From assembly GCA_947507155.1 (NCBI GenBank), contig CANNOC010000003.1:1-64000 (forward strand): DNA of 64,000 nt, given 5' to 3'. Position 1 is the stretch's first letter. Every line of letters begins with the position of its first letter. The position numbers and the translations under genes are program-made. The stretch is from an uncultured Collinsella sp. GTDB lineage: Bacteria; Actinomycetota; Coriobacteriia; Coriobacteriales; Coriobacteriaceae. The notes beneath the pieces were generated by a model, which did not search any database, was not told the origin of the DNA, and saw only the letters and a list, made by a program, of their open reading frames with translations. This document shows positions 4,476-63,130 of the stretch, one piece after another.

Positions 4476-4504
4476 TGCAAGAAAAGTAGTCGGCATCGCA
4501 GGTT

Positions 4505-4661
4505 GAGCCAACGTCAGCGAGCGACGTCCAAGGCGAACAAGTTGGCATGAAAAAGGCAGGGCATTGACCTTCTGGTCATGCCCTGCCTTTTGAATGACAA
4601 ATTGTCGCCTTGGGCGGCGCGCAGCGTCGAGCCGTTACGCGGGCTGGTAAGCCCGCGTAAC
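4505..4661. repeat. Structured intergenic repeat, copy A of four
   Basis: This is one of four related elements in the window; the others are at 20163-20321, 26240-26357 (truncated) and 31960-32100. It has three parts. An outer helix pairs CCAAGGCGA with TCGCCTTGG. An apical hairpin has arms AAAAGGCAGGGCAT / ATGCCCTGCCTTTT. After the linker GCAGCGTCGAG comes a terminal hairpin with arms GTTACGCGGGC / GCCCGCGTAAC and loop TGGTAA. The helices differ in sequence between copies but remain paired. The copy ends 2 bases before the stop codon of the LCP gene, so it forms that gene's 3' untranslated region. The function is unknown. Confidence 0.75.
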
Positions 4662-4662
4662 T

Positions 4663-5889
4663 CTAATAGTTGGCTTCGTAGCCGTTGCCGTCACCGGTGG
4701 GCTCTTCGTAGTAATCGGAGCCGTCGCTCGAATCGTCGGAATCGTCCGAGCCACCCGACGAGGTCGCGGTGCCATATGCGTAGTCCTCGGACGTATTGTT
4801 GTTGAGGTCACCGATCGTGGAGCTGGAGCCGTCTGAAAGGCCCATGGTGTTGGGGCCCTTGGGATCCTCACCGGCGTCGACGTGGGCCATCATTTCCTTA
4901 AGCTCGTCTTCGTAGACAAAGACATAGCTCACGCCGTCGATCATAGTGCTGTCGTCGGCGTACGAAGGCAGGTTGGCCGAGTAGATGCCCTCGACATCCA
5001 TGCCGCGCATGGCATTGACCGTGGACACGATATCCTGAACGCTCATATCGGTTACGAGCATATCGGACAGCGAATTAACCAGGCCAAAGATCTTCGTGGC
5101 ATCGAAGTTATTGAGAATCTGGTTGGCAAGGGCGCCAAGCACCTGACGCTGATGGCGCATGCGCGTGTAATCGCCGTCGGCATAGGTGTAGCGGCAGCGG
5201 GCATAGGTAAGAGCGGTAGCGCCGTCCATATGCTGCTGACCAGCGGTAATCTTAATATCCAGGTGCTCGGGATCGTCGACGTCGTCGGTCGCGTTGATGT
5301 CGATACCGCCAACCGAATCAATAAGCGACTGCATGCCGTCAAAGCTGACCTCGGCATAGTGAGAAATCTGCACGCCGCACAGCTCGTTGACCGCCTGGAC
5401 CATGGCCTCGGCGCCGCCAACGGTGTGGCAGGCGTTGATCTTCATGGTCTCGCCCTTATACACGACCTTGGTGTCGCGCGGAACGGAAATGAGCGTCGCC
5501 TGCTTTTGCGTGGGGTCGATGCGTGCCAGGATAATCGAGTCGGCACGATACGTATCCTCGCCCGGACGACCGTCGGTACCAAGAAGCAACACGTAGAACG
5601 GATCTTTTGCCTCATCGGTATCGACCAGAATCTGGCGCAGGTTGTTGGTAATGACATTGGAGTCGCCAAGCTTGCCCATGATAGTGGCAAACCACAGACC
5701 CGCAGCAGTCGTGGCGCTCAGCAGCACGCCGAGTACGGCGATGAGAGCTACGCGGCGAACCGTGCGGCCGCGACGGCGCTGACGGGCGCGCTCGGAATAG
5801 CGTGCGACATTGTCGCGGCTGTAGATCTTGGCCTGCGCACCAGTCGAGGGTCTTCGGGTGTTATCCGCTAGGGGTTTCTTGTTAAACAT
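4663..5889 (-). CDS. LytR-CpsA-Psr (LCP) family protein
   Basis: This 408-residue membrane-anchored LCP protein is of the class that transfers undecaprenyl-linked glycopolymers to peptidoglycan or glycoproteins. It has a basic N-terminus, one transmembrane helix (about residues 47-70) and an extracytoplasmic LCP domain from about residue 98. That domain contains LLLGTDGR, the catalytic-site RAD triad region (residues 116-118) and SVPRDT (135-140). The last 70 residues form a low-complexity Ser/Asp/Gly tail rich in acidic residues. I chose ATG 5889, which has AGG 6 nt upstream, over an in-frame TTG two codons earlier. It follows murA by 12 nt, so it probably shares a cell-envelope unit. Confidence 0.92.
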   Translation of the reverse strand: MFNKKPLADNTRRPSTGAQAKIYSRDNVARYSERARQRRRGRTVRRVALIAVLGVLLSATTAAGLWFATIMGKLGDSNVITNNLRQILVDTDEAKDPFYVLLLGTDGRPGEDTYRADSIILARIDPTQKQATLISVPRDTKVVYKGETMKINACHTVGGAEAMVQAVNELCGVQISHYAEVSFDGMQSLIDSVGGIDINATDDVDDPEHLDIKITAGQQHMDGATALTYARCRYTYADGDYTRMRHQRQVLGALANQILNNFDATKIFGLVNSLSDMLVTDMSVQDIVSTVNAMRGMDVEGIYSANLPSYADDSTMIDGVSYVFVYEDELKEMMAHVDAGEDPKGPNTMGLSDGSSSTIGDLNNNTSEDYAYGTATSSGGSDDSDDSSDGSDYYEEPTGDGNGYEANY

Positions 5890-19602: not shown

Positions 19603-20162
19603 GGGGTCCTCCCCTCTTAAGCGCCGAGCGGCGCGCGAATGTCGGAGCAGATTGTACGCGAGGGTGGCACGCAGCAAGGGACGATTGGAAGCGATTATCG
19701 AGAATCAGCCCAGAATTTTGCTTGGATTGCAATCGAAGCGTTCATTCGCCGACGTCTAAATCTGCATCCGTCAAGCTTTTGGTAAGGTTGCCCCAAAACT
19801 GACCAATATCTAACCAAGAACTTGCCAAATCACTTGACGCGCGACGCATCAAAAATCGCCCCGCGACTTCTTGAACGATTTTTCGAGCATTATTTTTAAA
19901 AATGATAAGTAAATTTAAGCAGGTAAACAACTTAATTGCTATTAAAGAAGATTGAATAAACTCACAAAGCAATGTGCCTGACCTAGTCATTGGGGACGTT
20001 CTTAAACGACTAGCTGTCAGGGACAGTCTTCGCAGCCAGCCACAAAGAACCGTCCCCATCTGTCGGCACAAAAGGGGCGTCCCCAACTGCCAAGTGCCGC
20101 AAGAATGTCCCTTTTGACTAGTCATTTAAGAACGTCCCAAATGACTACCTCTAAGGCCCGCG
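19603..20162. other. Non-coding, repeat-bearing, AT-rich stretch between prfA and prmC
   Basis: Apart from the elements listed separately, this gap contains an AT-rich segment (about 19770-19985) that stands out from the GC-rich surroundings. One minus-strand frame (19742-20125) is open through it, but its first half is translated repeat sequence and it has no recognisable domain. It may be a decayed gene or foreign insertion; I do not call a gene. Confidence 0.5.
19986..20145. repeat. Nested REP-like inverted repeat
   Basis: Arms at 19986-20013 and 20118-20145 are inverted copies sharing the core GGACGTTCTTAAACGAC; the right arm carries a few substitutions. The 104 bases between them contain further short GGGACAG and CGTCCCC pieces, as if one repeat had landed inside another. 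The same core makes the palindromes at 21601-21656 and 26184-26239. Confidence 0.75.
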
Positions 20163-20321
20163 GGTTGAGCATAAGTCAGCGAAAACGCCCCTAAGCGAGC
20201 AAGGTGACGTGAAAGAGGAGGGAAGCGTACTTCGGTACGCGACCGACGATTGAACGTCAGATTGCCGCTTAGGGGCGTTTGCAGCGTCGAGCCGTTACGC
20301 GGTTTGGCAAAACCGCGTAAC
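20163..20321. repeat. Structured intergenic repeat, copy B of four
   Basis: Related to 4505-4661. The outer helix pairs AAACGCCCCTAAGCG with CGCTTAGGGGCGTTT. A second helix pairs TGACGT with ACGTCA. The apical hairpin GCGTAC-TTCG-GTACGC has a TTCG tetraloop. The linker GCAGCGTCGAG leads to a terminal hairpin GTTACGCGGTTT / AAACCGCGTAAC (loop TGGC). It ends 3 bases before the prfA stop codon. Confidence 0.75.
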
Positions 20322-21392: not shown

Positions 21393-21600
21393 GGCGGGAC
21401 TCCTTTATATGCGTGAAGGTGAAAATCGGCAGAGTTGATGGGGCGCGCGGCGCCACTGCGGGGGTAAGCCCGGCTAGAACATGTCGATCTTCAGATACAT
21501 GCGCATCCCTTCGCGTATGGGGTACATAGTTGCGGTCTAACCCATACATGATAGCGTGCGCAGGCAAACCTGCATATAACCCGCACGGAATGAGTGGACG

Positions 21601-21656
21601 TAGCCGTTGGGGACGTTCCTTAACGACTAGTCGTTTAAGAACGTCCCCAACGGCTA
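21601..21656. repeat. 56-bp REP-like palindrome
   Basis: This near-perfect palindrome is centred on CTAG, with arms beginning TAGCCGTTGGGGACGTTC and one mismatch. It matches the palindrome at 26184-26239 in length and most of its sequence. It lies between the M20 peptidase stop and the prfA start. The rest of this gap (21393-21600) shows no clear gene or element. Confidence 0.85.
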
Positions 21657-21683
21657 GCAAAGGGACTGTCGCTTTTTCGCATT

Positions 21684-26064: not shown

Positions 26065-26183
26065 AATCTGCCTTCCCTGTTGAATCGTACGCTAACGACT
26101 TAACAGGATACCGCTCAGCGTTACTTCCAGCAGATGCATATATAAGATGCATATATACAAGTTTACGAACTGAAAACGATTGG

Positions 26184-26239
26184 TAGTCGTTGGGGACGTT
26201 CTTAAACGACTAGTCAAACAAGAACGTCCCCAACGACTA
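26184..26239. repeat. 56-bp REP-like palindrome abutting a truncated repeat
   Basis: Inverted arms of TAGTCGTTGGGGACGTTC type surround a CTAG-containing centre; the right arm differs at three central bases. It sits upstream of the importer operon and directly touches copy C of the structured repeat family, whose 5' part is missing. Upstream of it, around 26133-26158, is an AT-rich ATGCATATATA tract written twice. Confidence 0.85.
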
Positions 26240-26357
26240 GGCATGAAAAAGGCAAGGCATAAACCTTCTGGTCATGCCTTGCCTTTTGAATGACAAATTG
26301 TCGCTCTGGGTGGCGCGCAGCGTCAACCGGTCCGCCGTTCGTTAGAACGGCGGAACC
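26240..26357. repeat. Structured intergenic repeat, copy C (5'-truncated)
   Basis: It begins at GCATGAAAAAGGCA, where copy A has the same sequence internally. It keeps the apical hairpin, the 3' strand of the outer helix, the linker GCAGCGTC and the terminal hairpin (CCGCCGTTC / GAACGGCGG). The 5' strand of the outer helix is absent, replaced by the REP-like palindrome. It ends one base before the aldose epimerase stop codon. Confidence 0.75.
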
Positions 26358-28368: not shown

Positions 28369-28401
28369 AATGTGACAAAGGGACTGCCCCTTTGTCACAT
28401 T
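28369..28401. repeat. 33-bp palindrome (GTGACAAAGGGAC family)
   Basis: Arms AATGTGACAAAGGGAC and its complement surround one central base with a single mismatch. It is almost identical to the element at 54358-54390. It lies 57 bases upstream of the MFS transporter start, so it could affect its 5' untranslated region, or be a passive repeat. Confidence 0.8.
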
Positions 28402-28458
28402 CTGTTAGAGTTGCAGGGATTGAATCCCGCTTATTCATGCGACATTGGAGTGACAACC

Positions 28459-31509: not shown

Positions 31510-31689
31510 GAGTGTCCCCCTTGGTTCGGGCGCGGCGCGACGGCGCCATAGTGCGACTAAGTGTAGCGCAGAGGGCGTTGCGAGCGGAGGCGAGCGGTAC
31601 GAAGCGCAAATTGTTGCGGAAAGGTTACGGAAATGGGAGGCAAATCGCGGCGGTAGCGGCACAGTATCTGCCATCTAGTTGCTACCATT
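31510..31689. other. Intergenic stretch without a recognised gene
   Basis: This is the first part of the 692-bp divergent gap before the MarR operon. I see no gene or clear regulatory site in it; the rest of the gap is described in the repeat and promoter entries. Confidence 0.5.
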
Positions 31690-31845
31690 CCAAAACTATG
31701 CCGGATTACTACGATAAACCGCCAGTCTCCAACCACAACGAATTGCACTCCAGCAAAACCGCAGGTAGACAGCTTGTGATTTTCCGAAAAACAATGCCGA
31801 GGTCTGATATTTCGAATTCATCGTAGTAATCCGGCATAGTTTTGG
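31690..31845. repeat. Long hairpin with 26-bp perfect arms
   Basis: Arms at 31690-31715 and 31820-31845 are perfectly complementary over 26 bp (CCAAAACTATGCCGGATT and on). The 104 bases between them are AT-richer than the genome and contain no open frame of note. It resembles a non-autonomous mobile element or a very stable RNA hairpin. Confidence 0.8.
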
Positions 31846-31959
31846 ACAAAGCAACTTCGAAAGGGTGTCACCGCAGCCCAAAATGATTCGTTTTCCTCCG
31901 TCCCCCACGGATCACTCAAATGCCAACCGAGGCAGCGCTGCAGATTGAGGACGGACAGC

Positions 31960-32100
31960 GAAAGCGTTCCTAGGCGAGCAAGGTGGCGTGAAAGAGGAGG
32001 GCATAGGCCTTGTGGCCATGCCCGACGATTGAACGCCAGATTGCCGCTTAGGAACGTTTGCAGCGTCGAGCAGTTACGGCGTTTGGTAAAACGCCGTAAC
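31960..32100. repeat. Structured intergenic repeat, copy D of four
   Basis: Related to copies A-C. The outer helix pairs AGCGTTCCTAGGCG with CGCTTAGGAACGTT. The second helix pairs TGGCGT with ACGCCA, where copy B has TGACGT / ACGTCA. The apical hairpin is GGGCAT...ATGCCC. The linker GCAGCGTCGAGC leads to the terminal hairpin GTTACGGCGTTT / AAACGCCGTAAC. Unlike the other copies it does not abut a minus-strand stop codon; it precedes the marR promoter. Confidence 0.75.
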
Positions 32101-32705: not shown

Positions 32706-34512
32706 AACCCTCATGGGCAGCATCCGTGACTATATGAAAGCCACCGTTGCCACGCCATTGCTCGTGCTTGGCGAGGTGCTCTGCGAGATGCTGATTCCAT
32801 TTATCACCGCCAACCTGATCGACGCCATCAAAGACGGCGCCACCGTAGCCGAGATGCTTCCCACCGCGGGCTTTTTGGTGCTCATCGCACTGACGTCGCT
32901 TGCTTTTGGTGCCGCCGCCGGCGTCACCTGCAGCCATGCGAGCTGCGGCTTCGCCAAGAACCTGCGTCACGACCTGTTCTACAAGATCCAGACGTTCAGC
33001 TTTGCCAACATCGATGAGTTCTCGAGCTCCTCGCTCGTCACGCGCCTGACCACCGATATCAACAACGTGCAGCAGGCCTTTATGATGATCATCCGCATCG
33101 CCGTGCGCGCGCCGCTGGTATTGATCTTCGCCTTTACTATGGCGTTTATCATGGGCGGCAGCGTCGCCATGGTCTACCTGGTCATCATTCCGCTGCTGGG
33201 CTTTGGACTGTTCTTTATCATCTTTAAGGTGCGCCCCATCTTCTCGCGCGTGTTCCACAAATACGATGCCCTTAACGAGTCCGTCGAGGAAAACGTCACC
33301 GGCATGCGCGTGGTCAAGAGCTATGTGCGCGAAGACTTTGAGAAGGAGAAGTTCGCGACCGCTGCACGCGACGTCCAGATGGACTTCACCCGCGCCGAGA
33401 AGCTGCTCGCCTTTAACAACCCCATGATGAACATCTGCGTCAACGGCGCATTTGTCGTCATCATCTACCTGGGCTCCAAGCTCATCATCACGAGCCAGGG
33501 AACGCTGTTCGACGTGGGCCAGCTCTCCTCGATCTTTACTTATGGCTTCCAGATCCTCATGAGCCTGATGCAGCTGTCGATGATCTTTGTCATGGTGACC
33601 ATGGCCGACGAATCGGCGCACCGCATTACCGAGGTGCTGGCCGCCGAGCCCACGATCGCCGATCCCGCCGAGCCCGTGCTCGAGGTTGCCGACGGTTCCA
33701 TCGACTTTGACCACGTGAGCTTTAAGTATTCCGCGCATGCAAAGCGCCAGGCGCTCGACGATATCGACCTGCACATTAAGAGCGGCGAAACCATCGGCAT
33801 CATCGGCGGTACCGGCTCGGCCAAGTCCACGCTCGTTAACCTCATCGCCCGCCTGTACGACGCCACCGAGGGCACCGTGCGCGTGGGCGGCATGGACGTG
33901 CGCGACTACGACTTGGACGCCCTGCGCCACCAGGTGGCCATGGTGCTGCAGAAAAACGTACTGTTTAGCGGCACCATTGCCGAAAACCTGCGCTGGGGCG
34001 ACCCGAACGCCACCGACGAGGAAGTCCGCGAGGCGGCACATCTGGCCTGCGCCGATGAGTTTGTCGATGGCTTCCCCAAGGGCTATGACACCTGGATCGA
34101 ACAGGGCGGCTCCAATGTTTCCGGCGGTCAGAAGCAGCGCCTGTGCATTGCGCGCGCCCTGCTGCGTCGCCCCAAGATCTTGATCCTGGACGACTCCACC
34201 AGCGCCGTCGACACCAAGACCGACGCCAAGATTCGCGCAGGGTTGGCAAGCTATCTGCCCAACACGACCAAGCTCATCATCGCCCAGCGCATCAGCTCCG
34301 TGCAGGACGCAGACCGCATCATCGTCATGGAGGGCGGCCGCATCGCGCAGATCGGTAACCACGACGAGCTGCTTAAGACGAGCGAGATCTACCGCGAGAC
34401 TTTTACCTCGCAAAACAAGATGTCTGCCGAGGGCGAAGGGGCCGTCGAGGCCGACACCGAGGCATCCGTAACGCAAGCTCAGACCCAGGAAGGAGGCGAG
34501 GCACATGAGTAA
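32698..34512 (+). CDS. ABC exporter half-transporter with a degenerate ATPase site
   Basis: This 604-residue membrane-ATPase fusion has six transmembrane helices (about 1-330) and a nucleotide-binding domain from about 340. Walker A reads GGTGSAKST (Ala before Lys), the signature is VSGGQKQR, and Walker B is ILILDDSTSAVD. Asp therefore replaces the catalytic Glu, as in the non-catalytic half of heterodimeric exporters such as TM287/288. The C-terminal 35 residues are Glu/Ala/Thr-rich. The partner gene overlaps by 8 bp. Confidence 0.93.
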   Translation: MIKTLMGSIRDYMKATVATPLLVLGEVLCEMLIPFITANLIDAIKDGATVAEMLPTAGFLVLIALTSLAFGAAAGVTCSHASCGFAKNLRHDLFYKIQTFSFANIDEFSSSSLVTRLTTDINNVQQAFMMIIRIAVRAPLVLIFAFTMAFIMGGSVAMVYLVIIPLLGFGLFFIIFKVRPIFSRVFHKYDALNESVEENVTGMRVVKSYVREDFEKEKFATAARDVQMDFTRAEKLLAFNNPMMNICVNGAFVVIIYLGSKLIITSQGTLFDVGQLSSIFTYGFQILMSLMQLSMIFVMVTMADESAHRITEVLAAEPTIADPAEPVLEVADGSIDFDHVSFKYSAHAKRQALDDIDLHIKSGETIGIIGGTGSAKSTLVNLIARLYDATEGTVRVGGMDVRDYDLDALRHQVAMVLQKNVLFSGTIAENLRWGDPNATDEEVREAAHLACADEFVDGFPKGYDTWIEQGGSNVSGGQKQRLCIARALLRRPKILILDDSTSAVDTKTDAKIRAGLASYLPNTTKLIIAQRISSVQDADRIIVMEGGRIAQIGNHDELLKTSEIYRETFTSQNKMSAEGEGAVEADTEASVTQAQTQEGGEAHE

Positions 34513-36424
34513 GGCAACGACCGCTGAGCGCGCGCTCAACCGCAAGGGTGGCACCATGTCGCGCCTCATCAAGACGCTCTTTGGCTTCTACCCCGTGCTT
34601 TTGCCCCTCGTCGTCGTCGGCGTGGTACTCTGCGCCATCATCAACTCCATCGGCGCGACCTTCCTTCAGAGCGCTCTGCAGATTATTAGCGAATCGTGGC
34701 AGTCGGGCGATTGGGAAGCCGCACAGCCCAAGATCGCACAGCTCGTGACCACCCTCGCCTGCATCTACGGCGTCGGCATCCTGTCCTCGCTGTTCTGGAA
34801 CCGCGCCATGGCCATCGTCACGCAGGGCTCGCTCGAGAAGCTGCGCGAGAAGATGTTCAACCGCATGCAGGACCTGCCAATTCGCTACTTCGACACGCAC
34901 CAGCGCGGCGACATCATGAGCCACTACACCAACGACATCGACACGCTGCGCCAGATGATCAGTCAGTCGCTGCCCAACCTGCTCATGACGACCATCGTCA
35001 TCGTCACGGTGTTCTTTATCATGCTGTACTACAGCGTGTGGATGTGCCTGGTCATTGTGGCCGGCGTCGCCTTTATGACCTTTATGACCAAGCTGCTCGG
35101 CTCCAACTCCGCGCGTTTCTTTATTGCGCAGCAGACCGAGCTCGGCGTGGTCGAGGGCCATATCGAGGAAGTCATGAACGGCCAGAAGGTCGTCAAGGCA
35201 TTCTGCCACGAGTCTGCCGCCGAGGCCGATTTTGACGAGCGCAACGAAAAGCTCTTCGAGGTTTCCCAGAAGGCCAACATGTACGCCAACATCCTCATGC
35301 CCATCCTTATGAACCTGGGCAACCTGCTCTATGTGCTGGTCGCACTGGCCGGCGGCATTTTCCTGGCGCTGGGCGTGCCTAACCTGAGCATCTCGGGCAT
35401 GGCGTTGTCCATCGCCGTCGTGGTGCCGTTCCTCAACATGACCAAGCAGTTCTGCGGACAGATCGGCCAGATCTCGCAGCAGATCAACGCCGTGGTCATG
35501 GGCCTCGCCGGCGCCGACCGTATCTTTGAGCTCATCGACGAGAAGCCCGAGGCCGACGAAGGCTACGTGACGCTCGTCAACGCGCAAGTGAACCCCGAGA
35601 CCTGGGAGTTCGAGGAGGCCGACCACCACACCGGCATGTGGGCATGGAAACATCCGCACCGCGCAACCGGCGAGATCGAGTATGTACCGCTGCGCGGCGA
35701 CCTGGTCATGGACAACGTCGACTTTGGCTACACGCCCGACCACGAGGTGTTGCACGGCGTGTCCGTGTTTGCCAAGCCGGGCCAGAAGGTCGCGTTTGTC
35801 GGCGCCACCGGTGCCGGTAAGACGACCATCACCAACCTCATCAACCGCTTCTACGACATCGCCGACGGCAAGATCCGCTACGACGGCATCAACGTCAACA
35901 AGATCCGCAAGGCCGACCTGCGCCGCTCGCTGGGCGTCGTGCTACAGGACGTGAACCTGTTCACCGGCACTGTGATGGATAACATCCGCTACGGCAACCT
36001 GGACGCTACCGACGAGGAGTGCATCGCGGCGGCCAAGCTCGCGGGCGCGGACGACTTTATCACCCGCCTGCCCGACGGCTACGACACGATGCTCACCGGC
36101 AACGGCGCACAGCTGTCGCAGGGCCAGCGCCAGCTGATCTCGATCGCACGCGCCGCCGTCGCCGATCCGCCGGCAATGATTCTGGACGAGGCCACGAGCT
36201 CCATCGACACCCGCACCGAGGCCATCGTGCAGGCAGGCATGGACAAGCTCATGGAGGGCCGCACGACGTTTGTCATCGCGCACCGCCTGTCCACCGTGCG
36301 CAACTCCGACGCGATCATCTGCCTGGACCACGGCCGCATCATTGAGCGCGGCAACCACGACGAGTTGATCGCCAAGCGCGGGTACTACTATCAGCTCTAT
36401 ACCGGAGCATTTGAGCTGGAGTAG
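34505..36424 (+). CDS. ABC exporter half-transporter with a consensus ATPase site
   Basis: This 639-residue partner has six transmembrane helices (about 25-335) and a nucleotide-binding domain. Walker A is GATGAGKTT, Walker B is AMILDEATSSID with the catalytic Glu, and the signature is LSQGQRQ, with Gln in place of the usual second Gly. Between the membrane domain and the ATPase an extra segment of about 40 residues (about 355-395, ending YVPLRGDLV) is longer than usual. With the preceding protein it should form one asymmetric drug or lipid exporter. Confidence 0.93.
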   Translation: MSKATTAERALNRKGGTMSRLIKTLFGFYPVLLPLVVVGVVLCAIINSIGATFLQSALQIISESWQSGDWEAAQPKIAQLVTTLACIYGVGILSSLFWNRAMAIVTQGSLEKLREKMFNRMQDLPIRYFDTHQRGDIMSHYTNDIDTLRQMISQSLPNLLMTTIVIVTVFFIMLYYSVWMCLVIVAGVAFMTFMTKLLGSNSARFFIAQQTELGVVEGHIEEVMNGQKVVKAFCHESAAEADFDERNEKLFEVSQKANMYANILMPILMNLGNLLYVLVALAGGIFLALGVPNLSISGMALSIAVVVPFLNMTKQFCGQIGQISQQINAVVMGLAGADRIFELIDEKPEADEGYVTLVNAQVNPETWEFEEADHHTGMWAWKHPHRATGEIEYVPLRGDLVMDNVDFGYTPDHEVLHGVSVFAKPGQKVAFVGATGAGKTTITNLINRFYDIADGKIRYDGINVNKIRKADLRRSLGVVLQDVNLFTGTVMDNIRYGNLDATDEECIAAAKLAGADDFITRLPDGYDTMLTGNGAQLSQGQRQLISIARAAVADPPAMILDEATSSIDTRTEAIVQAGMDKLMEGRTTFVIAHRLSTVRNSDAIICLDHGRIIERGNHDELIAKRGYYYQLYTGAFELE

Positions 36425-36551
36425 TTCAGCCCGCCGAGAAGGCCGATTTGTCGCTCATTCGTCGGGCATGACCCTAAGGTCAATGCCCTCCTCTTTCGGG
36501 GCAAATCGACTCATCTCAACGACCCAAACACAATGCGCCGCAACGAATAAA

Positions 36552-54233: not shown

Positions 54234-54357
54234 AAGCCGGTTTCCTCCCAACTTTAATGTTCGAAGGAATTATAGGTAATCGGCCCATGTTTGAATGGCA
54301 CTGTTTTCCCAGCTAGATAAACATTTATACGGCCTTTAAGCCATCTCGGCGATATGG

Positions 54358-54390
54358 AATGTGACAAAGGGACTGTCCCTTTGTCACATT
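54358..54390. repeat. 33-bp perfect palindrome (GTGACAAAGGGAC family)
   Basis: AATGTGACAAAGGGAC and its exact complement flank a single central T. It starts two bases after the end of the nitroreductase gene (minus strand) and is almost identical to 28369-28401. Confidence 0.88.
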
Positions 54391-54392
54391 CG

Positions 54393-58020: not shown

Positions 58021-58374
58021 GGAAAGTGTGTCCCAGAATTCACGTCCGGAGTGGGATGCAGTTTCCGCTTGGGACCCGATTGGGAAAGTGTGTCCCACTA
58101 TTCAGCTGGATTCCGGGATGTATTTTCCGGTTGAGGCTCGTTGGGAAAGTGCGTCCCACTTTGGGGGCTGATTCTGGGACGTGGTTTCCGGTTGGCTCTC
58201 ATTGGGAAAGTTCATCCCATTTCTCGGCCTAATTATGGGACGCAGTTTCCCGTTGAGGACCCTTTGGGAAAGTGCGTCCCGGTCTGGGCGCTCAAACTGG
58301 GATGGATTTTCCGGATGAGGGCTTGACGGAAAATGTGTCCCGTTCCGGGCGCTAATTGTGGGATGCAGTTTCCG
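58021..58374. repeat. Tandem hairpin array 1, six units
   Basis: Six units start at 58021, 58083, 58144, 58205, 58267 and 58328, so the period is 61-62 bp. Each unit has a left arm (GGAAA-N-TG-N-GTCCC type) and a complementary right arm (GGGA-N-GCA-N-TTTCC type) about 18 bases apart, so each can form a hairpin. The spacers vary but show family likeness. It lies just past the 3' end of the surface-protein gene. Confidence 0.85.
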
Positions 58375-58396
58375 CTTGCGGAGTCTCCACTCAACA

Positions 58397-58462: not shown

Positions 58463-61051
58463 CTAGTGGGTCTTGCGGCGCTTGATCAGCATGATGAGGG
58501 CTATCACTACGAGCGTTGCTCCCGCTGCTGCTGCGGTGGCGACTAGGGCGAATGTTTGGTCGCCGGTGTTTGCGAGGTTCTTCGCTGTGGTCGTAGTCTT
58601 GACCTTGGTGTCGGTCTTAGCTCCGTTGTCGGGCTTGGGCTTGTCCGGGTTCGTCGGGGTCTCAGGAGTCTCGGGGTCCTTTGAGCCTTCGGAATCGGTT
58701 GGGCCGGCGGTGTTTACCAGCGTATGGTCCAGGAACTTCTTGGCGCCCGCACTTGCCTGTGAGAACAGGCGGCGCGTGCGGATCGGGGTGGCGTTCACCG
58801 TTGTGGGCGCCGTCTCCTCGGCCTCGATATTCACGAGCGTCGTGCCGGTGTCGAGGCCCACGTCGTTGTATCCCACGTGGCAGTAATACTGCGCACCGTC
58901 ATCGTCTGCGGTCAGGTCAATCTCGAGCTTTGAGGCCGTTCCAGCCGCGAGGTTGCCATCGGCACCCACGAGCTTAAACTCTGTCTCGCCGCGGCCCTTG
59001 CGGTACCACATATAGGTCGGTGCCAGCCCTGTTTCGCTATCGTCGGCACCGAGTTGCTTCACATGGCCAATCGCCGAGAGCGTCAGGTGGCTTCCCGCCG
59101 CGCGCTCAACCGAAGAGTCGTATCCAAGATCCGACCCCTCCGCAGCATCCGCCGCAGGTCCGCTCACGGTCATCGTCATGCCATCGGGCATGGTCTTGAC
59201 CGTGATGATTGCCGAGCGAATACCTGTTTCGGTCGTGGATCCATTCTTAACGGCGGCGATGGCGAATCGATACTCCGTATTGGGCTGCAGCCCATCCCAC
59301 TTGAGCGAGGTCTGCGTGTTGTCGGCAATCTTCCAGCTATTGACGACCGCATCCGCCGCATTGCTCTGCAGCATGCCCACGCCGTAGCTAAAGCCACTCT
59401 TGTTTGCGAGTACATCGTCCCAGCTAAACGTAACGCTGGTCGAATCGACGGCGTTTGCCGTAAAGCCCGTCACGGCCGGCGCGTCGGGCATCTCGACGTC
59501 CTTAACGTCATAGCCCACGATCCAGAACTGGTCGGTGTCCTTGGTGCCGAGCTTGTCGCCCGAGCCTGCCTCGAACTTGTCGACATCCACCGCGTTGACG
59601 CCCAGACGCCACACAAAACCGTACTTGCCCTGCGCGGCCTCGGGCAGGTTGTCGACGGTGCCGCCGTATTCGGTCGATTCACTCGAGGAGTTACCCGTAG
59701 TAAAGCCGGCGTTGGCACCAAAGCACAGGCCGCCAAACAACTCGTGCTTTGCGAGCTTCGCGCCCATGACAACGCTGCCGTTCAGCGTCAAGCCGAGCTC
59801 GAGCTCCTGCTCCTTGCCCTCCTCGACTTCGATGGTCTGCTCAATGCTCGCCCCCGACTGCGCGGCGGCGCCGTTAAACCCATCGTGCGTGTAGGCGCGC
59901 GTTACGCCAGGCTTGCCCAGGCCAAAGGAATCCCCAACGGGAGTCTCGCCGTTGAGCGTCGTTTGATAGGTTCCGGGTTCTCCCGACCGGTTGGTCAAAA
60001 AGTAGCTGAGCGGCGTCATATTGTGCTGTTTGGCAATGCGGTCATAGGCCTCGACATTAACGACCGAGGTCTGCGCGCCGAGCGACACGGGCGTCGCCAT
60101 CACGCCCTTGCCACCAGTTTCCTCATTTTCGATCTCATACTCGTAATAGACCATCGGAATCGTGTAGAGCACGGCCTTGTCACCCTCGCCGGCATGCGAC
60201 TCATAGCTTACGCTTGCGCTGACCGTGCGCTCGCTCCGGTAGTCATAGCATCCCTCGGCGGCAAAATCGACTGAAGCATTCATCGCGACCAGGGGCGGAC
60301 CGGTCTGCACCTCGACGGCAACGCCCAACTCGGCGCCAATGGTATAGCCCTGGGATGTCCCCGTGCCCTTTTCCTCTCCGTATGACGTGCCGCCCAACAC
60401 CAGATAGCCGTATGCCTGCTCCAGATCCTCAACATAGGGCGCATCCTGCAGCACGGCAAGCACGCGCGGGTTGGTATAGACCTTGTAGCGGTCCTTGTAC
60501 GTGATCTTGACGCTGTCGTTGTCGGCATCGGGCAGCGCGAGCGAGATAAATGTGCCGTAGGTAGTGCCGCGACGGTTGCTCTCGCTAATCACCTGCTCCT
60601 CGCCGCGGCGCACCTTTCCGTTCTCGTCGAGCGAAAAATGCGAGGCGGTCATCCAATAGTAGTCATCGTTCTTGCGCAGGTCCTCGTCGCGGTGCTTGCC
60701 CACCACGGCGATAAAGCTCTCGTTATAGCGGTCCGAACCCGAGACGCTGCCCGCCTTGACGTCGCTGATCCACACCTGCTCTATACCCTTGTGGTCATGC
60801 TTGTTGCTGCTGTTGTATTGCTGACCGCTCATGCTCATGGTTCCGACCATGGACCCCAAGCCCTGAGCCCCGCTCTGTGCCGTGTTGCAGGCAAAGTCGC
60901 GGAACACATCGCCGCCCACGAGCACCTCGTCAACCGCCAGCCGCTCGGACAGGCCGTCAAGGTTGGCAGTGGCAAGGGCAATAGGCGCCAAGGTGCACGG
61001 ATAGCGCTTATCCTGAGCGCTATCCTTCCATGCGCTGTTGGGCACATGCAT
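58463..61051 (-). CDS. Surface protein, C-terminal fragment (Fn3 and LANTG sorting signal)
   Basis: This 862-residue fragment is downstream of the frameshift; on its own it has no signal peptide and would not be exported. It begins in an FG-GAP-like region (LAPIALATANLDGLSERLAV). A fibronectin type III domain lies at about 535-640 (PDAPAVTGF, VTFSWDD, LQPNTEYRFAIAAVKNGS), followed by a possible Ig-like domain (YMWYRKGRGETEFKL, AQYYCHVGYNDVG). A Pro/Lys/Thr-rich wall-spanning stretch (about 785-825) and the sorting signal follow: LANTGD, a hydrophobic helix, then KRRKTH. LANTG replaces the more usual LPxTG. No sortase gene is in the window. Confidence 0.85.
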   Translation of the reverse strand: MHVPNSAWKDSAQDKRYPCTLAPIALATANLDGLSERLAVDEVLVGGDVFRDFACNTAQSGAQGLGSMVGTMSMSGQQYNSSNKHDHKGIEQVWISDVKAGSVSGSDRYNESFIAVVGKHRDEDLRKNDDYYWMTASHFSLDENGKVRRGEEQVISESNRRGTTYGTFISLALPDADNDSVKITYKDRYKVYTNPRVLAVLQDAPYVEDLEQAYGYLVLGGTSYGEEKGTGTSQGYTIGAELGVAVEVQTGPPLVAMNASVDFAAEGCYDYRSERTVSASVSYESHAGEGDKAVLYTIPMVYYEYEIENEETGGKGVMATPVSLGAQTSVVNVEAYDRIAKQHNMTPLSYFLTNRSGEPGTYQTTLNGETPVGDSFGLGKPGVTRAYTHDGFNGAAAQSGASIEQTIEVEEGKEQELELGLTLNGSVVMGAKLAKHELFGGLCFGANAGFTTGNSSSESTEYGGTVDNLPEAAQGKYGFVWRLGVNAVDVDKFEAGSGDKLGTKDTDQFWIVGYDVKDVEMPDAPAVTGFTANAVDSTSVTFSWDDVLANKSGFSYGVGMLQSNAADAVVNSWKIADNTQTSLKWDGLQPNTEYRFAIAAVKNGSTTETGIRSAIITVKTMPDGMTMTVSGPAADAAEGSDLGYDSSVERAAGSHLTLSAIGHVKQLGADDSETGLAPTYMWYRKGRGETEFKLVGADGNLAAGTASKLEIDLTADDDGAQYYCHVGYNDVGLDTGTTLVNIEAEETAPTTVNATPIRTRRLFSQASAGAKKFLDHTLVNTAGPTDSEGSKDPETPETPTNPDKPKPDNGAKTDTKVKTTTTAKNLANTGDQTFALVATAAAAGATLVVIALIMLIKRRKTH

Positions 61052-62553
61052 CAGCCCATAGGAGGCGAGGAGCCCGTCTCTGTATTCCTTACAATCGGAA
61101 AGCTTGAACTCGCCAGACTCCGAGTCAAAATACGCGTAGCGGTACAGCGCGCCGTACAGCCCCTTGCTGCCGTCAGAAGCGCCGTAATCAAAAGCGCTGC
61201 GTTGCCAGTCATAGCCCGCAAGAATAAGGCCCCCGTGACGGTTTCACCCGTCTTCTTTCCTTCTTCATCGTAGGCGGCAAACGTGCCGAACGTCGCATTC
61301 GCAGCGACCATGGTCTTGCCGTTCGCGGAGAGGGAGATTGCGCCCGCGTCGCCCAGAGCATCGACATGGACGAGCGCACCCTTGGATGCATCCCACGAAA
61401 ACAGCTCGCAATGCGTCGACTTATCAATATTCTTCTTGCCGTAGGGTGCCGAGACCACGATGGCGAGGTCATCGCAAAAATCGCGATCGAGGTCGCCGGC
61501 CGCTAGCGAAACGACAGGAGCTGACTGAAGCTGCGTCCAGGAGTCGTTCCCGCCCTTGTTGTGCGTGGTGTAGTCCGCGGCGTTACCGGCATCGATCTTG
61601 ACGACGCTTTGCTTCCAGTTGCCGCCCTCCAAGTCATACATGTCGACTACAGCCTTGCGCACGCCGTTCTCGTCGACATAGCAGCCCGCGTAGACAAAAA
61701 GCTCGTCGACGCCGTCGCCATCGACATCGCCCGCCTCGACATCAAAGACGGCGTCGTGCTCTTGCAGGTAACCGGCATCCAGGTACTTAAAACGGCCTTC
61801 GTACATCATATTAGTGTTGACCGTCACCGGCAGGTGTGTGTCGAGAGTGCGCGTACGCCCGTTGCTAAACGAGTAGAGGACCAGCTCAACCTTTCCGGCG
61901 TATGACTTGCCGTCAATCGTCGTGGAGGAACTGTCGCCGTAGGCACGGAGCTCGGCAACGCGGCTCTTTTTGCCCGTGCTGGCGTCGCTGCAGAACTCAA
62001 CACTCGTGGCGTGAATGCCCGAGAAACCGTTGTTGTCGTTGGCGAGTACTGTTGAGGACTCATTGTTGCTTAGGTACGACCAGGTGCCGCCACCGTAGTC
62101 GCTATGCTTGTAGAGATCGCTGTTCGTATCGAAGTTGTTGACGTTTTGCCAGAACTTTGCGGCGCCCCACACACTTCCATAGCCATCGGTGAGTTTGCTG
62201 CTGCCGCCAATGTCACCGCGCTCGACGTTCTCGAGCTTGTCGCGCAGAGTGTAGCGATTGCCATGGCTACCGTTAGCTGCCATATAGACCTCGCTGCGCG
62301 TGGCAAACGTCGTGGGGGTATCAGTGGAATAGGGGCCAACGGTATCGGCCGGAATGTCCTCGCTCGTGCCCAGACCCAGGGCTTGATAATCCTGCTCGGT
62401 CATATCGGTGATTGCGGGCGCGTCTGCCGCCTGGGCAACCTGGGGCGTGGCCGTGAAGCAGGCGACGCTCGTGGCGATCAACGCAGCAAGCGCCGCCGTC
62501 CCAACAAGCGGGATTTTCGACAGCCTACGGATACGGGGGTGTGGAACGTACAT
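61051..62553 (-). CDS. Surface protein, N-terminal fragment (signal peptide, FG-GAP)
   Basis: This fragment has about 500 residues. The signal peptide at 1-42 has RIRRLSK, a hydrophobic core and the cleavage site VAQA-AD. The rest carries FG-GAP/VCBS-like blades with Asp-rich calcium loops: VEAGDVDGDGVDELFVYAG and LAAGDLDRDFCDDLAIV. The last 45 residues after TVTGA are out of frame. ATG 62553 (GAGG 6 nt upstream) begins the signal peptide; the frame to 62589 is not needed. As it stands the product would be secreted without a wall anchor. Confidence 0.82.
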   Translation of the reverse strand: MYVPHPRIRRLSKIPLVGTAALAALIATSVACFTATPQVAQAADAPAITDMTEQDYQALGLGTSEDIPADTVGPYSTDTPTTFATRSEVYMAANGSHGNRYTLRDKLENVERGDIGGSSKLTDGYGSVWGAAKFWQNVNNFDTNSDLYKHSDYGGGTWSYLSNNESSTVLANDNNGFSGIHATSVEFCSDASTGKKSRVAELRAYGDSSSTTIDGKSYAGKVELVLYSFSNGRTRTLDTHLPVTVNTNMMYEGRFKYLDAGYLQEHDAVFDVEAGDVDGDGVDELFVYAGCYVDENGVRKAVVDMYDLEGGNWKQSVVKIDAGNAADYTTHNKGGNDSWTQLQSAPVVSLAAGDLDRDFCDDLAIVVSAPYGKKNIDKSTHCELFSWDASKGALVHVDALGDAGAISLSANGKTMVAANATFGTFAAYDEEGKKTGETVTGALFLRAMTGNAALLITALLTAARGCTARCTATRILTRSLASSSFPIVRNTETGSSPPMG

Positions 62554-62676
62554 GAGGGACCTCGCTTTATTCGAGTGGAGTGGACTCATTTTTGCAAATG
62601 ATACATCCGATGCCCGATATCACGTGTCTCATTTTCGCCAACGGCGTGTCTCATTTTTGAGAATCCGAGATGCCGC
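62554..62676. promoter_or_regulatory. Upstream region of the surface-protein gene
   Basis: This 120-bp stretch must hold the promoter of the surface-protein gene, but no consensus boxes stand out. The phrase GTGTCTCATTTT occurs twice (about 62623 and 62645), and the second sits in a small palindrome TCTCATTTTTGAGA. Confidence 0.35.
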
Positions 62677-63130
62677 GGAAATCTTATCCCAGCTCAAAGG
62701 CCATTTCTGGGATGTATTTTCCGTCGAGTGCCTCATCGGGAAACTGCATCCCATTCAAGCGTCGATTCTGGGACGCACTTTCCCCTTAGACCCTCAACCG
62801 GAAACCGCATCCCACTTTGAGCGCAAATTCCGGGATGCATTTTCCGCTTGAGCCTCATTGGGAAACGGCGTCCCACTTTGAGGGCTGATTGTGGGATGCA
62901 TTTTCCGGTTTTGCTCTCATTGGGAAAATGCATCCCGTTTCTTGACCGAATAATGGGACGCAATTTCCCGTTGGAGCGCCTTTGGGAAAGTGTGTCCCAC
63001 TTCGACCGCCCAGAGTGGGATGCACTTTCCGCAAAGCACCTCATCGGGAAACTGCATCCCATTCCAAAGGCAAATTCCGGGACGCATTTTTCGAAAGCCT
63101 GCCCATCCGGAAAGCCCGTCCCACTTTGGA
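62677..63130. repeat. Tandem hairpin array 2, seven units and a partial eighth
   Basis: Units start at 62677, 62739, 62800, 62861, 62923, 62985, 63047 and 63109, with a 61-62 bp period. Arms and much of the spacer match array 1 (for example CCCACTTTG and GGGCTGATT), in the same orientation. The last unit has only the left arm and part of the spacer. It lies upstream of the surface-protein gene. Confidence 0.85.

Follow-up and report, generated by a model that had tools for sequence, protein, structure and literature searches.

The 64-kb stretch of Collinsella DNA analyzed here (the window) contains, between its genes, several copies of a large hairpin that is usually followed by a smaller one, and it raises the question of what such a repeated structure is and what keeps it folded. 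An earlier note had described four copies sharing an outer helix, an inner helix with an apical hairpin, a linker and a terminal hairpin. This layout, including the helices and the linker, is found in copies A, B and D (Table 1), but copy C is a truncated A-type unit, and the terminal-hairpin loop TGG(T/C) that had been assigned to all copies is replaced in copy C by TTCGTTAGAA. Copies A and C are 87% identical over 100 nt and represent one cassette type, and B and D share 82% identity; A to D are therefore not four independent structures. Nor is their number complete: the four are real, yet a fifth, copy E on the minus strand, had been missed, and the 2.2-Mb Collinsella genome from which the window derives has about 45 copies. 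In a dinucleotide-shuffle test, single window copies fold at z -7.6 to -10.7. On its 5′ side, copy C joins another palindrome family at about position 26240. This second palindromic family (GTAGTCGTTGGGGACGTTCTTAAACGACTAGTC; window 19983-20148, 21600-21657 and 26183-26240) often borders or truncates the large hairpins, copy C included. Just upstream of copy D lies a 30-nt inverted repeat (31689-31718 / 31817-31846), the arms of which are 97% complementary and 98 nt apart.

Table 1. Positions of the hairpin units and their parts in the 64-kb window (R1, score with the covariance model; z, fold z-score against shuffled sequence).
Feature	Position	Strand	Remarks
Copy A leader (AGGTTGAGCCAACGTCAGC)	4500-4518	+	same leader in many copies
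Copy A GA-rod hairpin	4519-4623	+	R1 93.0 bits; z -10.2; apical hairpin terminator-like
Copy A linker GCAGCGTCGAG	4621-4631	+
Copy A terminal hairpin GTTACGCGGGCTGGTAAGCCCGCGTAAC	4634-4661	+	adjoins stop codon of minus-strand gene at 4663
Copy B leader (GGGTTGAGCATAAGTCAGC)	20162-20180	+
Copy B GA-rod hairpin	20181-20283	+	R1 105.8 bits; z -9.2
Copy B outer arms	~20183-20202 and 20263-20281
Copy B inner helix, 5′ arm	20205-20210		pairs with ACGTCA; tandem GA from 20211
Copy B linker GCAGCGTCGAG	20281-20291	+
Copy B terminal hairpin	20294-20321	+	adjoins prfA stop codon (minus strand, 20325)
Copy C A-type rod, 5′-truncated	26240-26316	+	leader and outer 5′ arm lost; R1 35.7 bits over 26222-26319
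Copy C linker GCAGCGTCAA	26317-26326	+
Copy C terminal hairpin, different type (GGTCCGCCG..CGGCGGAACC)	26329-26357	+
Copy D GA-rod hairpin	31960-32062	+	R1 96.1 bits; z -10.7
Copy D linker GCAGCGTCGAG	32060-32070	+
Copy D terminal hairpin GTTACGGCGTTTGGTAAAACGCCGTAAC	32073-32100	+
Copy E diverged GA-rod	36425-36527	-	R1 65.0 bits; directly behind stop of plus-strand ABC transporter gene 34505-36424

We refer to the large hairpin provisionally as the GA-rod. A full unit begins with a leader ending in CAGC(G), which leads into the rod hairpin of about 105 nt; the linker CAGCGTC(G/A)A comes next, and the unit closes with a REP-like terminal hairpin, in many cases adjoining a stop codon. CAGCGTC and a second hairpin often follow the rod. 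Across the family the rod spans 80-105 nt and comprises an outer helix, a GG/GA loop, an inner helix, repeated tandem GA/GA mismatches and an apical hairpin. In copy B the outer helix reads AAACGCCCCTAAGCG-(A)-GCAA/TTGC-CGCTTAGGGGCGTTT on the folded strand, and moving inward there are a 2x2 loop GG/GA, the inner helix TGACGT/ACGTCA, helices of 1-2 bp separated by GA/GA, and the apical hairpin. Seventeen rods of the window genome served to build the covariance model R1 and an alignment, A1, made by MAFFT without reference to structure, while a larger alignment, A3, holds 100 distinct rods, drawn from several relatives as well as the window genome, and was fitted to the model, so that it is biased towards the structure. 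Among these 100 rods, the loop that follows the inner helix has a 5′ GA in 92, a 3′ GA in 82 and both in 76, and the outer loop consists of GG/GA, the swapped arrangement or a close variant. Tandem G.A pairs stack well in RNA and DNA.

Pairing in the rod is maintained despite sequence change. In A3, 90.5% of the pair cells pair, and 919 cells have changed on both sides, as against 272 in shuffled alignments (sd 15). The covariation score is 0.717, compared with 0.203 after shuffling and at most 0.13 when partners are slid by 1-3 columns, and the structure-free alignment A1 agrees (0.656 vs 0.193). Covariation proposed from four copies is thus retained in a larger alignment, far above the shuffle null. 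Furthermore, at one locus that is orthologous in two genera (L070/L142), the outer helix differs by three C-G to T-A replacements, each affecting both sides, and every pair stays intact. Because of the covariation in A3 and these compensated changes, we conclude that the fold is maintained. The earlier reading of the base changes as selection on the fold holds to this extent, but the changes are not simply point-by-point compensation, since near-identical cores occur within different outer helices and whole cassettes are swapped at orthologous loci. Strong covariation is, moreover, by itself no proof of a functional RNA. The two strands are not equivalent: the stems of the folding strand have G.T pairs in 242 cases and A.C in 84, or 109 and 50 once two conserved wobble columns and two mis-registered columns are removed (p = 3e-6, a value that is only nominal because the copies are phylogenetically non-independent), and the GA strand has a lower minimum free energy than its complement in 92 of the 100 rods with RNA parameters and in 94 with DNA parameters. 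Relative to the abutting gene, the strand that folds is antisense in about 80% of copies.

The rods form a dispersed family. It is present in 23 of 60 Coriobacteriales genomes (up to 49 copies each; one genome per species, with rough E-values), and in a survey of 198 genomes across the phylum under strict filters only Coriobacteriales were positive (6 genomes). The matches listed for the exact core pattern include many from Collinsella together with Olsenella, Slackia isoflavoniconvertens, Thermophilibacter provencensis and an Atopobiaceae MAG; among viral contigs this pattern had no match. No Rfam family matches at the gathering score, and the literature RNA Collinsella-1 does not match the rods. 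With no prior description found in Rfam or the open-licence literature, the GA-rod family is, as far as these sources go, previously unreported.

Placement at gene 3′ ends, suggested by the window copies, is also seen genome-wide. As had been observed, copies A, B and C each adjoin the stop codon of a gene on the minus strand; these genes encode a LytR-CpsA-Psr protein (4663), PrfA (20325) and an aldose epimerase (26359). Copy D abuts no stop codon; a gene of the MarR type begins about 100 nt beyond it. Neighbors were identified for 95 copies, taken from genomes that include the window genome, G050 and G059, by calling genes in the surrounding stretches with a simple script based on codon usage. 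The next gene lies on the opposite strand in 78 of the 95, its stop codon usually 0-45 nt from the rod. The commonest arrangement is -E-, between two genes of the other strand (56/95), followed by +E- (20/95). At L036 a gap of 11 nt separates the end of the rod (1501-1604) from the RNase P RNA gene (RF00010, 1616-1977, minus strand), which argues that the landmark is the transcript end rather than the stop codon as such. Several copies lie between a stop codon and a separate terminator-like hairpin. In the closed genomes G061, G082 and G059, the gene that a copy abuts is co-directional with replication for 86 of 104 copies. A region of 363-530 kb around the terminus is free of copies (simulated P = 0.0008, 0.009 and 0.11, with the origin taken from dnaA). 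Some abutting open reading frames (L092, L140, L096 and L137) enter the linker and end in a common tail such as PVDAAAAS; the element may supply the C-terminal codons and the stop at these loci.

Such regular placement could mean that the rods are host elements of the 3′ UTR, that is, structured RNAs or processing or termination modules selected behind housekeeping genes. Besides the constant location after stop codons and after the RNase P RNA gene, this reading is favored by the occupancy of the same genes in different genera or families (prfA, pheS, purH, cysS and carA) and by the double-sided changes at L070/L142, which leave no pair broken at an orthologous locus. However, the strand selected to fold is antisense: because the next gene is on the opposite strand, it is that gene's template strand and not its mRNA strand. 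In the 56 copies of the -E- arrangement no obvious transcript would give the folded strand, and the one promoter scan made, around copy B, showed no promoter for it. Since presence is also polymorphic among congeners, we regard a host element as a rather unlikely general explanation.

Units are gained and lost, and their modules are swapped. In a group of about 20 Collinsella genomes, the same position at loci A and B is occupied by one of three unrelated rod types, freely combined with several terminal hairpins; Collinsella outside that group lack a rod at the prfA locus. Units present in G059 are missing from the orthologous sites of congeners (L134 and L096 in G282 and G051; L136 in G282). 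At L141/L355 only the leader, rod and linker are missing and the terminal hairpin stays, and at L046 the window genome has CAGCG-rod-CAGCG where a relative, G065, has a single CAGCG (L205). None of the empty sites compared shows a clean target-site duplication. CAGCG borders 51 of 95 rods, but this motif is itself conserved, and 36 rods have it on neither side.

Taken together, copy number, restriction to Coriobacteriales, covariation, strand bias, gene-end position, gain and loss, cassette swaps and the decoupling of cores from outer helices described below lead us to propose, with a probability of roughly 55%, that the GA-rod is a Coriobacteriales-specific, modular, non-autonomous mobile DNA element that is recognized by its structure and lives in 3′ UTRs. 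Units would insert behind the 3′ ends of transcription units in one orientation and later be lost again, exchanging rod and terminal-hairpin modules. The fold, as a single strand, would be the recognition signal for a putative trans-acting recombinase or transposase, as REP hairpins are for TnpA-REP, and copies would be retained because they are tolerated in the slot after a stop codon. Three observations count against this proposal: no mobilizing gene was found, no clean target-site duplication was seen, and the occupancy of orthologous genes across genera and families looks more like long residence or function. Recurrent targeting would equally produce such occupancy. Given the shared genes, some copies may nevertheless be long resident or have a host role, and some may have been kept for a role in the 3′ UTR.

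The boundaries of the putative mobile unit can be considered from pairs of related rods. In four comparisons (L138/L141, L038/L056, L096/L134 and L159/L161), the cores are 94-99% identical and the outer arms only 27-73%, yet 10 or 11 of the 11 pairs form. In G061 the empty L058 allele (from the L231/L224 comparison) is a bare hairpin, GCCTCCCGAG..CTCGGGAGGC, followed by TGTTCT; the window genome has a matching hairpin with the core placed inside its loop. Similarly, the G090 allele of L044 (compared with L222) holds a new core in the loop of a hairpin CCGCCC..GGGCGG, and the old core is mostly gone. We speculate that the mobile unit may be the GA-mismatch core alone, with the outer helix supplied or rebuilt at each site through insertion into a hairpin loop or through copying of the target into an inverted repeat, although this narrower version is unlikely. 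Insertion into hairpin loops cannot yet be taken as the rule, as there are two cases only and the empty sites of L134 and L096 show no such hairpin. If true, core-only mobility would target folded single strands and renew its own stem. In a comparison of L356 with L363, one arm of a terminal hairpin (GAGCAGCGAATAG) is similar to the gene end that the empty allele natively carries (AACAGCGAATAG), as would be expected had the opposite arm been copied, inverted, from the target.

The same observations can be read without any selection on the fold, if template switching between the arms during replication (quasi-palindrome correction) restores pairing by rewriting both arms together. This would account for outer helices that are replaced wholesale around cores up to 99% identical and for the arm at L356 that is like a native gene end. 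Template switching should, however, erase mismatched loops, and yet GA/GA is kept in 76 of 100 rods; an excess of G.T over A.C on one strand is likewise not predicted. We therefore consider this mechanism improbable as the source of the pairing.

We also compared the GA-rod element with known repeats. GTAG REPs, REPINs and BIMEs, which are associated with RAYT (PMC2817692, PMC3116915, PMC8266576), are likewise high-copy intergenic hairpins, mostly downstream of genes, with a composite arrangement and a structure more conserved than the sequence, and the free combination of rod and terminal-hairpin types at the A and B loci is a BIME-like mosaic feature. A GTAG REP is defined as a palindrome of 20-40 bp with GTAG at its 5′ foot; no conserved GTAG was found beside the rod of 80-105 nt, which also differs in its size (about 100 nt), its series of tandem GA mismatches, its fixed orientation to genes, its lack of linkage to RAYT and an outer helix that varies independently of the core. 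CGTC REPs (PMC3733652) resemble the unit in having a CGTC motif near a hairpin and no dedicated transposase known. They are defined by CGTC directly at the foot of an 8-9-bp stem starting with AT, a loop of 4-5 and a CCA tail (PMC3733652), whereas the unit reads CGTC-GAGCC-GTTACGCGG, with CGTC several nucleotides from the hairpin, a stem of about 12 bp starting with GTT, no CCA tail and a large rod in front of the hairpin. A word search of the CGTC REP paper (PMC3733652) found no Coriobacteria. MITE-type repeats such as ERIC/RU, BOX and RUP (PMC2229807, PMC3049150) are also short, modular, non-coding, intergenic and probably non-autonomous; in contrast to them, the GA-rod folds strand-specifically, and neither terminal inverted repeats of a known IS nor a simple target duplication was identified. 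Intrinsic terminators are similar in that they are hairpins at gene ends, the apical hairpin of A-type rods is terminator-like, and the L058 outer helix coincides with a terminator stem. Termination as a general function was rejected: although two loci involve terminator hairpins, there is no consistent U tract, with runs of at least four T beside the rod in 1 (plus) and 2 (minus) of 95 copies, a count that underestimates runs within the outer arm. Copy B has one weak minus-strand terminator site. Since the defining features of GTAG REPs, CGTC REPs and terminators fail and no Rfam family matches, we describe the element as REP/BIME-like but not as a REP. Integron attC-like sites, suggested by the covarying hairpins and GTTA.../...TAAC ends, were also considered and set aside, as no cassette genes were seen and copies abut resident genes.

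That the rods are nevertheless a classical REP family mobilized by a RAYT (Y1) transposase is very improbable. Their copy number, intergenic placement and hairpins are REP-like and the window genome has two Y1_Tnp genes, but no rod lies within 1.5 kb of either, and, going by the listed coordinates, rods flank none of the Y1 genes that were checked in five further genomes. Rods occur without Y1_Tnp in G059 (closed, 27 copies), G051, G019, G047 and G037, and G002 has six Y1_Tnp genes and zero rods. The Y1_Tnp gene at L031 is itself bordered by AACCTGCCAAAAAGGGACAGGTTTATTTTGGCAGGTTTTATC repeats (~150-200, 930-970 and 2175-2215), a candidate RAYT-REP pair unrelated to the rod.

Abundant gut Actinomycetota thus hold dozens of cassettes behind prfA, pheS, cysS, purH, carA and the RNase P RNA gene. 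GA-rods unite extreme covariation, conserved mismatches, strand specificity and, on the reading preferred here, mobility, and they would offer a testable system for how structure-recognized repeats lacking a known transposase spread, which is an open problem of CGTC REPs as well. The window contains further palindromic repeats. Thirteen units GGAAAnTGcgTCCCA..TGGGATGCAnTTTCC, spaced 61-62 nt apart, occupy 58021-58377 and 62677-63096, flanking, in part as inverted arms, two minus-strand genes (58463-62589) that match FN3 and FG-GAP repeats, and a third palindromic repeat, AATGTGACAAAGGGACTGTCCCTTTGTCACATTC, is present at 28369-28402 and 54357-54391.
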